DNA of 64,000 nucleotides, taken from positions 62,001 through 126,000 of the forward strand of contig DAHUXH010000006.1 in assembly GCA_027307235.1 (NCBI GenBank). The letters are read 5' to 3'. The first letter of the stretch is position 1, and the number at the start of each line of letters is the position of its first letter. The position numbers and the translations under genes were made by a program. Under the pieces are notes generated by a model. It was not told the DNA's origin. It saw only the letters and a list, made by a program, of their open reading frames with translations, and ran no database searches. Origin of the DNA: Vulcanimicrobiota bacterium (GTDB taxonomy: Bacteria; Vulcanimicrobiota; Vulcanimicrobiia; Vulcanimicrobiales; Vulcanimicrobiaceae). Positions 13,698 to 15,998 of the stretch are shown here, one piece after another.

Positions 13698-14872
13698 GAT
13701 TTCGCCAGTTCCCGGCGCTCGTAGGCACGCAGGAAGGGATAGTAGATGGCAGTCGAGATCGCCAGGTTCACGAAGACGAGCGCGACCGCGCGCAGATCCA
13801 CGGTTGCGATGAACGAGGAGACAATCGTGGGCACCGTTGAGGGCACGTAGAATGCGGGGCGCCCGACCAGATTGTAGGCGACGGCCAGGTACGTGATGGT
13901 CGCGATCGCGAGCGGCGCCAGCAAGAACGGCACCGCGAAGACCGGATTATAGACGATCGGCAAGCCGAACAACAACGGTTCGTTGATATTGAACAGCGCG
14001 GGGGCGAGCGACACGCGTCCCACCGTGCGCAAGCGTCCGACGCGCGAGATCGCCAGCAGCAACGACAGCGGCAGCGTCGCACCGGCACCGCCGGGGAAAA
14101 CGAACACGAACAGCGAGACGGTCACGATGTGCGGAAGCGGCGCGTGCGCTGCGAATGCACTCGAATTTTCGGCTTGTAACGTCAAGTACAACGGCGTGAC
14201 GATCGCGGCGAAGAGCGCCGGACCGTGGACGCCGATCAGCCAGAGCGCACATTCGAGCACGACGATCAACGCAAGCGCGACATATGAGTCACCGAGCGTC
14301 GCGAGCGGCGAAAGCATGGCGATGACGGCGGCCGGCACGGAGATGTGCAACGCCGCAAGTCCGAGCCCCACACCGATCGTCAACGCCAATCCCAGCAGTT
14401 GCGCGAGCGTCTTGTGCGCGATGGCGCGCACGCATATCTCGATGATGCCCGAGGCCATGATCACGGTGAGGATCGCGATCAGCAGCGCACTGGTTCCGAA
14501 CGATCGCAAGTATTCGACGGTCGGCGTGAACGGCCGCGGCGCGACCAGGGCGAACGCGAGCACGCAAGTCGCGGTGAAGAGCGCCGGCAACATCTCTATC
14601 TTCGCGGCCAATCGCCACGCCAAAATGGGCACCAGCGCCACGCCCATCACCGTGAACGACGGAATGATGATCTGCGCGATACGGCGCGCCAGTTCGTTGC
14701 CGCTGTGCGGAATGTGGAGCAGGAGCAACGCCGCGAAACACACCCCGAAGCCGATCAGACTCCAGGGCAGGCTTTCGCGGATGGCTACCGGGGTGGGGCG
14801 CTCCCCGAGCGCGTGCAAGAACGCGTCAGAGCTTGCGAACCACCGCTTCAACGCGACCGACGATATCGACAT
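13694..14872 (-). CDS. PTS transporter subunit EIIC, lactose/cellobiose-type
   Basis: A membrane permease domain of a phosphotransferase system, 392 residues with about ten hydrophobic segments. The family signatures are AIRESLPWSLIGF near 30-45 and APALFNINEPLLFGLPIVYNP, the NEP sugar-binding motif, near 290. No EIIA, EIIB, HPr or enzyme I gene lies nearby, so it may be an orphan or may transport without phosphorylation. The ATG at 14872 lies inside the end of lexA (47-base overlap); no ATG, GTG or TTG with a ribosome site occurs nearer the lexA stop. It is followed by the YnbB-like gene with a 4-base overlap. Confidence 0.85.
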   Translation of the reverse strand: MSISSVALKRWFASSDAFLHALGERPTPVAIRESLPWSLIGFGVCFAALLLLHIPHSGNELARRIAQIIIPSFTVMGVALVPILAWRLAAKIEMLPALFTATCVLAFALVAPRPFTPTVEYLRSFGTSALLIAILTVIMASGIIEICVRAIAHKTLAQLLGLALTIGVGLGLAALHISVPAAVIAMLSPLATLGDSYVALALIVVLECALWLIGVHGPALFAAIVTPLYLTLQAENSSAFAAHAPLPHIVTVSLFVFVFPGGAGATLPLSLLLAISRVGRLRTVGRVSLAPALFNINEPLLFGLPIVYNPVFAVPFLLAPLAIATITYLAVAYNLVGRPAFYVPSTVPTIVSSFIATVDLRAVALVFVNLAISTAIYYPFLRAYERRELAKS

Positions 14873-15437
14873 CGCTCGCGTAGATTGGCGCCATCTGCTT
14901 ATTCTCCGGCTGCAACCGCACGCGGGTACCTTCTTTATAGAAGGTCTTGACGGTAGCTTCGCCCTCGATCATCGCCACCACGATCTCGCCGTTCTGCGCG
15001 TTTTTCTGCGGCCGCACGACGAGCAAGTCGCCGTCGAGGATGCCCGCGTCGATCATCGAGTCGCCCGCAACGCGCAGCGCAAACGCATTGGAAAGCTTTG
15101 GCAGGAAAGAGGTCGGCAACGCGAATTCGCCTTCGATATTCTCCTGCGCGGTGATCGGCGTGCCGGCCGCGACTTTGCCGACAATCGGCATCGCAATGGT
15201 CTCCGGAGCGGCGCCGGCCGGACCATCGGCGCGCAGCGCGCGGGGCTTGGTCGGGTCGCGCGAGATCAGCCCGCGGCGCTCGAGGCTCTTGAGGTGCGAG
15301 TGGATCGTCGAGGAGGACGACAAGCCGACGCGCTCGCCGATCTCACGCACCGAAGGCGGATAGCCATGCTCGGCGGTCAGCTCGCGGATCGCTTCGAGTA
15401 TGCTGCGCTGGCGGTCGGTTGCCGGCTTCTCGGTCAC
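14826..15437 (-). CDS. lexA: LexA repressor
   Basis: SOS-response repressor that dimerises on operator DNA and self-cleaves when RecA is activated. In the 203-residue protein the winged helix-turn-helix (about 1-70) includes YPPSVREIGERVGLSSSSTIHSHLKSLERRG. The AAG cleavage site lies in VGKVAAGTPI, the catalytic serine in GDSMIDAGILDGDLLVV and the lysine in ATVKTFYK. Start GTG 15437 has AAAGGAG 7 bases upstream. A divergent LysM gene faces it across 219 bases containing three matching LexA sites, one of which overlaps the presumed lexA promoter. Confidence 0.97.
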   Translation of the reverse strand: MTEKPATDRQRSILEAIRELTAEHGYPPSVREIGERVGLSSSSTIHSHLKSLERRGLISRDPTKPRALRADGPAGAAPETIAMPIVGKVAAGTPITAQENIEGEFALPTSFLPKLSNAFALRVAGDSMIDAGILDGDLLVVRPQKNAQNGEIVVAMIEGEATVKTFYKEGTRVRLQPENKQMAPIYASDVDIVGRVEAVVRKL

Positions 15438-15491
15438 GCCGTTCTCCTTTCCACTATGCCATGCATATGGCACCGGATTCGGGTACACCCT

Positions 15492-15497
15492 ATCATA
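15492..15497 (-). promoter_or_regulatory. Candidate lexA -10 box
   Basis: On the minus strand this reads TATGAT, 54 bases before the lexA GTG. The expected -35 zone falls on the LexA site at 15513-15526, which would give self-repression. No good -35 hexamer is visible, so the call is tentative. Confidence 0.4.
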
Positions 15498-15512
15498 GGG
15501 TCAGAAAAAAAG

Positions 15513-15526
15513 CAAACATACGTTCG
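15513..15526. promoter_or_regulatory. LexA operator 1 (lexA-proximal)
   Basis: The minus strand reads CGAACGTATGTTTG, which fits the Gram-positive SOS box CGAAC-N4-GTTYG. It lies between the candidate lexA -10 and the -35 (15534) of the divergent gene, so it can repress both. Confidence 0.8.
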
Positions 15527-15533
15527 AAACGCC

Positions 15534-15564
15534 TTGACAGCTTGTGGAGAAGTCATGCTAAAAT
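15534..15564 (+). promoter_or_regulatory. Promoter of the divergent LysM gene
   Basis: TTGACA at 15534-15539 and TAAAAT at 15559-15564 are separated by 19 bases. TGC before the -10 makes it an extended -10 (TGCTAAAAT), which compensates for the long spacer. It is flanked by LexA operators 1 and 2. Confidence 0.7.
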
Positions 15565-15572
15565 CTAGGGGA

Positions 15573-15586
15573 CGAACAAGCGTTTG
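15573..15586. promoter_or_regulatory. LexA operator 2
   Basis: Reads CGAACAAGCGTTTG, the same CGAAC-N4-GTTTG pattern as operators 1 and 3. It sits at about the transcription start of the LysM gene, a position that blocks initiation. Confidence 0.8.
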
Positions 15587-15612
15587 GCCCAAGATATCGA
15601 CCGAATCGTCAT

Positions 15613-15626
15613 CGAACGAATGTTTG
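15613..15626. promoter_or_regulatory. LexA operator 3
   Basis: Reads CGAACGAATGTTTG. It lies in the untranslated leader, 31 bases before the GTG of the LysM gene and 40 bases centre-to-centre from operator 2, close to four helical turns, which would allow cooperative binding. Confidence 0.8.
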
Positions 15627-15656
15627 CCACTAGATAGAGTAAGGAGCAAGACCACC

Positions 15657-15935
15657 GTGAAACCGCGCAAACGTCCCACGCTGATGCCCGCGATCGCACT
15701 CGCGACGCTTGGTTTGATGGTCGCCCTCCCGACGCTTTCGGGAAGCCTCCACGCAGCGAGCGAGCAGCGCTACACGACGCACACGGTTCGCGGCGGCGAC
15801 ACGCTCTGGGCGATCGCGGCGGCGCACACGCCCGGCGACGGCGACGTTCAAGACACCATCGACCGCATCACGGCGATCAACCATCTCGGCTCCGGATCCA
15901 TTCACATCGGCGAACACCTCCGCGTCCCGGAATAA
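15657..15935 (+). CDS. YneA-like LysM protein, predicted SOS cell-division inhibitor
   Basis: A 92-residue protein from GTG 15657 (AAGGAG 11 bases upstream). The basic start KPRKRPTL is followed by one hydrophobic segment (about 9-28, a signal or anchor) and then a LysM peptidoglycan-binding domain (about 39-91) with YTTHTVRGGDTLWAIA, ITAINHL and IHIGEHLRVPE. Size, layout and position divergent from lexA match Bacillus YneA, which delays division during SOS. Three LexA operators lie in its promoter region. Sequence identity to YneA outside LysM is not evident, so the division role is inferred from context. A strong terminator follows. Confidence 0.75.
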   Translation: MKPRKRPTLMPAIALATLGLMVALPTLSGSLHAASEQRYTTHTVRGGDTLWAIAAAHTPGDGDVQDTIDRITAINHLGSGSIHIGEHLRVPE

Positions 15936-15965: not shown

Positions 15966-15998
15966 GAAACGCGGCGATGAGCCGCGTTTCCTTTTTGT
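15966..15998 (+). terminator. Rho-independent terminator of the LysM gene
   Basis: A perfect 10-base stem, GAAACGCGGC (15966-15975) with GCCGCGTTTC (15981-15990), loop GATGA, followed by CTTTTTGTTTT. It is 31 bases after the LysM stop and faces the end of the small gene at 16018 on the other strand. Confidence 0.93.

Follow-up and report, generated by a model that had tools for sequence, protein, structure and literature searches.

In the class Eremiobacteria, the SOS repressor gene lexA is faced by a divergent gene for a small YneA-like LysM protein, and the two probably form an SOS checkpoint module in which LexA would repress both genes and the LysM product would pause cell division. The pair was analyzed in a window of 64,000 nucleotides (the whole stretch of DNA under study) from a genome of Candidatus Eremiobacterota (WPS-2), class Eremiobacteria, a group of diderm soil bacteria. 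LexA operators, SOS control and a YneA-like arrangement had been proposed in a preliminary description of this DNA, and all three are strongly supported by the class-wide footprint and by the operator motif at the recA and imuA operons. Whether a LexA-controlled, FtsW-directed LysM division inhibitor of the YneA/ChiZ type has been fixed in this diderm class since its origin is a further step, for which we see about as much reason for belief as for doubt. If true, the pair would represent an old checkpoint that predates or crosses the monoderm-diderm boundary and has its own conserved helix design.

The lexA gene (HTH and S24 autopeptidase) is located on the minus strand at 14826..15437. Its product matches TIGR00498 over residues 21-220 of 220 (E=1e-70) with 237.5 bits, well above the curated cut-off of 110.95, and Pfam matches to LexA_DNA_bind and Peptidase_S24 were obtained as well. 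The longest open reading frame extends to 15488; the GTG at 15437 is the more likely start. AAAGGAG is found about 8 nt before this GTG, and many homologues align just from about residue 15-20. On the plus strand, the 92-residue LysM protein is encoded at 15657..15935, with a GTG start (15657) behind AAGGAG at 15641. Downstream follows a terminator-like hairpin with a T-rich tail (15966..15990, plus strand; the scan found 2 terminator-like sites against 0.8 expected), which suggests that the LysM gene is a monocistronic unit.

We searched lexA in 149 genomes of Candidatus Eremiobacterota and took 110 surrounding loci. Enough upstream sequence was available for 81 genomes of the class Eremiobacteria, one per species, yet related species are not independent of each other. 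In all 81, a divergent LysM gene faces lexA under LexA operators, so the pair is conserved in relatives, as the preliminary description had wished to see checked. Where a class locus showed no LysM match, as in a few cases, it ended at a contig edge. No LysM neighbor of lexA was found in a small and biased sample that covered other classes of the phylum, Bacilli, Clostridia, one Thermoleophilia and one Chloroflexota locus. As a diderm class has the pair in all of its readable genomes, the checkpoint would seem to be independent of a monoderm wall. Among distant Eremiobacterota, four lexA loci of family f16 (L157, L159, L161, L162) have a pair of TGAAC-N4-GTTCA sites upstream, spaced by about 33 nt; a LysM neighbor was not found at these loci, and f16 genomes often carry a second LexA.

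The neighbor of lexA had been read as a single-helix LysM protein, and this reading holds. Pfam LysM matches it with 6.3e-10, and the AlphaFold2 model (pLDDT 82) comprises a single N-terminal helix (residues 10-27), preceded by a basic N-terminus, and a C-terminal beta-alpha-alpha-beta LysM fold (domain 41-92). A Foldseek search with this model returned LysM structures with a probability of 1.00, though the best E value was only 0.008, and Pfam detected no catalytic domain. Against the NCBIfam model YneA (NF010723) the protein reaches 1.1e-11 and 44.5 bits. This is the most-hit family for the LysM proteins of the class; it is matched by 42 of 42 aligned members, in several of them over most of the model length, and two f3 members sampled singly gave no YneA match at 1e-8. 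However, the sampled scores of 44.5-56.6 bits do not reach the curated cut-off of 60 for NF010723, and we therefore call the protein YneA-like rather than a certified YneA. Further NCBIfam matches, all with weak scores, included ActS, an activator of amidases, and LysM hydrolases.

Within the family alignment, the helix segment matches LysM in conservation, with a mean top-residue frequency of 0.68 compared to 0.63 in the domain. Residues P11, P25, G47, W51, N75, G85 and P91 are invariant; the two prolines P11 and P25 flank the helix, which carries the conserved motif LMPxIALxxLSLxVxLPxLS. Judged from the alignment, helix conservation and flanking prolines exceed the needs of a plain signal peptide. 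They fit, by analogy, the FtsW-targeting mechanism of Bacillus YneA, whose helix binds TM7 of FtsW and whose LysM domain must bind peptidoglycan for inhibition (PMC13396833). In YneA, D46 and T47 are required for peptidoglycan binding and toxicity (PMC13396833), and G47-D48-T49 of the class protein would correspond to this region by motif, rather than by alignment to YneA itself. The divergent LysM family is a resource for finding the helix residues needed to dock on FtsW.

The proposed checkpoint would act as follows. As the conserved sequences indicate, LexA would bind CGAAC-N4-GTTTG around both promoters and repress lexA and the YneA-like gene. Self-cleavage of LexA triggered by RecA-ssDNA is an established pathway, and upon DNA damage it would presumably lead to synthesis of the small LysM protein. 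The prediction is that this protein is anchored in the membrane by its one helix and exposes LysM to the periplasm. In analogy to YneA of Bacillus, its helix might dock on the septal polymerase FtsW while LysM would hold nascent septal glycan, such that division would be paused until repair ends. A YneA-like function is likely, and the role as division inhibitor is drawn from this analogy.

The chief rival accepts SOS induction and dispenses with division inhibition: the helix would be a cleaved signal peptide, and a free periplasmic LysM protein would bind or protect peptidoglycan, or activate an amidase, during damage. An L-Y-A-A / L-H-A-A stretch, conserved directly after the helix, could be where signal peptidase cuts to set LysM free, and the weak hydrolase and ActS matches point in the same direction. 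Against this stand YneA as the most-hit family, a helix conserved to the same degree as the domain, the two invariant prolines and the missing catalytic domain. On balance we consider a soluble LysM protein rather unlikely, and the checkpoint remains our preferred reading.

A second question is the origin of the pair, for which the preliminary description had offered an ancient shared checkpoint or a transfer. In the LexA tree, the class sequences group on the side of Firmicute, Actinomycete and Chloroflexota LexA; a separate side comprises the majority of LexA proteins from other Eremiobacterota. This position speaks for a recent acquisition of lexA and the LysM gene from a Firmicute. However, class LexA forms one clade (support 99/98) with internal divergence, no readable class genome lacks the pair, and lexA genes of the other side, in families f15 and f16, are preceded by GAAC-N4-GTTC-type sites as well. 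Some other Eremiobacterota also have LexA copies on the side of the class, several branches are long, and the other phyla were sampled with search bias. We regard a recent transfer as improbable, because every readable class genome has the pair. With a single LexA clade and the pair in all readable genomes, the arrangement, on this evidence, dates back to the origin of the class or earlier. Of the earlier alternatives, descent from the ancestor of a larger group and an ancient transfer into the class ancestor are both compatible with these results.

In the window, exact CGAAC-N4-GTTTG sites start at 15513, 15573 and 15613, all between lexA and the LysM gene and all conforming to CGAAC-R-N-R-Y-GTTTG; they had been claimed at precisely these positions, on either side of a TTGACA promoter, and both claims proved exact. 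The LysM promoter (15534..15564, plus strand), as read from the sequence, consists of TTGACA (15534-15539), a spacer of 19 nt and the extended -10 element TGCTAAAAT with TAAAAT at 15559-15564. Across the class alignment, this TTGACA hardly varies. With spacers set to 16-18 nt, a consensus promoter scan missed this promoter because of its 19-nt spacer. Operator 1 (CGAACGTATGTTTG, 15513..15526, minus strand) precedes the LysM -35 by 7 nt and is found in the same place in nearly every class genome. A probable TATGAT-like -10 of lexA (about 15491..15496, minus strand) is located inside a conserved CTA-N-CATA block; its position, deduced from the sequence, would bring operator 1 near the lexA -35 region, with which it probably overlaps too. 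Operator 2 (CGAACAAGCGTTTG, 15573..15586, plus strand) starts 8 nt past the last base of TAAAAT (15564), over the predicted transcription start, and operator 3 (CGAACGAATGTTTG, 15613..15626, plus strand) falls in the 5' leader, ahead of AAGGAG and the GTG start. LexA on operators 1 and 2 could block both promoters.

Apart from these three sites, CGAACNNNNGTTTG has no exact match in the 64 kb according to a pattern scan of the window. With one mismatch allowed, 13 matches were obtained, a number that 0 of 100 shuffles reached. The genome of 2.41 Mb (20 contigs) has 40 places with CGAAC-N4-GTTYG, and at this genome-wide rate three exact sites within 150 bp have a probability of ~3e-9, or ~4e-5 expected clusters per genome if the number of such stretches is counted. 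A far stronger test than this chance estimate is the comparison across the class: the shared lexA/LysM intergenic DNA comprises 184 exact operators in 21.5 kb, compared to 1 in 47.7 kb of control DNA downstream. None of the 81 regions is without an exact operator, 77 have at least two and 26 have three, with a conserved spacing of ~60 nt from operator 1 to 2 and ~40 nt from 2 to 3. That the operators serve lexA autoregulation alone, with the LysM gene as a neighbor with an incidental promoter, is very improbable, since, while operator 1 by itself could serve lexA, operators 2 and 3 follow the LysM -10 towards the LysM gene, in conserved positions, and the gene order is kept in all 81 genomes.

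To judge from its distribution, CGAAC-N4-GTTTG is the LexA operator of the class, because it also precedes imuA-imuB-dnaE2, ftsY-recA and an RNase H-fold gene. The exact box is found upstream of imuA in 26 of 27 class genomes; at this locus, dnaE2 (a DNA_pol3_alpha match) follows downstream, with space for imuB between. The imuA-imuB-dnaE2 cassette has been described as persistently LexA-regulated in all hosts that have it, and GAAC-N4-GTTC as the LexA motif in B. subtilis and M. tuberculosis (PMC3323433). For recA, a scan limited to 350 bp upstream mostly revealed no box, while a scan widened to 1.49 kb located it upstream of ftsY, which precedes recA in most genomes. Within the window's order (families f1 and f2), an exact box stands ahead of ftsY-recA or directly ahead of recA in 16/16 scored genomes. 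Operators of the Gram-positive type GAAC-N4-GTTC were thus found at lexA (81/81), imuA (26/27) and, in this order, ftsY-recA (16/16). In much of the order (L198, G000:C10:185829-187836 and L189-L206) ftsY is directly upstream of recA behind the LexA box, and this arrangement would put the SRP receptor gene inside an SOS operon.

Enrichment at other SOS genes, the check proposed for the motif, holds for imuA and for recA of f1 and f2, and its outcome favors the finding. As a LexA target in the class, uvrA was rejected (box in only 1/30). In the outer family f3, 0/11 genomes have a CGAAC-N4-GTTYG box within the ~1.49 kb scanned before recA (L178-L188, L190); a twelfth f3 recA locus with only 9 bp of upstream sequence was left out. 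Unlike f3 recA, f3 lexA/LysM and imuA do have the box. Elsewhere, the genome has several CGAAC-N4-GTTYG sites with no SOS gene next to them, which may be due to chance. Given the motif and its class-wide footprint, SOS control of the LysM gene is close to certain.

A candidate for a new SOS protein is a 139-residue family present in 29/31 class genomes (window genome: G000:C12:200686-201102; L026:5087-5506), whose gene has the exact box upstream in 23 of 24 readable loci. It has no Pfam match; its AlphaFold2 model (pLDDT 92) shows an RNase H fold, with RNase H1 4e19 as best PDB match (E 2.6e-7). The invariant residues Y57, Y102, C107 and L109 are unlike the acidic RNase H active site. In addition, a sporadic radical-SAM gene is present in 3/31 class genomes (L239-L242; G000:C7:57695-58714), and an exact LexA box marks its start in 3/3. 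These data outline the SOS regulon of a little-cultured phylum at the level of its operators; in the literature searched, we found no earlier one for Eremiobacterota.

The host was described as diderm on account of an LptD-like protein and O-antigen genes. The diderm setting stands: the window genome encodes an Omp85 protein for outer-membrane assembly (E=4.9e-20, G000:C20:191144), an O-antigen ligase and dTDP-/GDP-sugar genes are located within the window, and for WPS-2 a diderm envelope, with genes for BamA and LPS, has been described (PMC6664022). The LptD-like protein was not recovered among two candidate frames of the window, which gave no Pfam match.

Division inhibitors adjacent to lexA are known from Bacillus, Listeria, Mycobacterium, Corynebacterium and Staphylococcus (PMC13396833, PMC6851548, PMC3989709). 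YneA of Bacillus subtilis and Listeria (NF010723) shares with the class protein the divergent position to lexA, GAAC-N4-GTTC operators, small size and an N-terminal helix followed by a C-terminal LysM. It differs in that the class protein resides in a diderm host and its sampled scores fall short of the YneA cut-off; the conserved helix motif of the class may be a further difference. ChiZ (Rv2719c) of Mycobacterium tuberculosis, a negative regulator of division, likewise adjoins lexA, is damage-induced and has one membrane helix and an extracellular LysM (PMC3989709, PMC6851548). Its actinobacterial host and reported wall hydrolase activity set it apart, by description and not by sequence. Since Mycobacterium ChiZ already has this arrangement, the preliminary claim of a new SOS division inhibitor outside Firmicutes overstated the novelty, and a "first outside Firmicutes" would be wrong. 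SosA of Staphylococcus and DivS of Corynebacterium are lexA-adjacent, SOS-induced, single-helix division inhibitors as well (PMC6851548), but both are without LysM. SidA of Caulobacter is a small SOS-induced membrane inhibitor in a diderm with FtsW as proposed target; in contrast to the class protein, a LysM is not described for it, and its binding is predicted for the opposite side of FtsW TM7 (PMC13396833). In the literature searched, we found no diderm phylum in which lexA is paired with a YneA-like gene, though a published case may exist. What appears to be new is a diderm phylum with the lexA/LysM arrangement, fixed across a class. While lexA-adjacent LysM inhibitors have been described as a Gram-positive feature (PMC6851548), their counterpart across a diderm class suggests that this type of lexA-paired checkpoint is probably not confined to Gram-positives.
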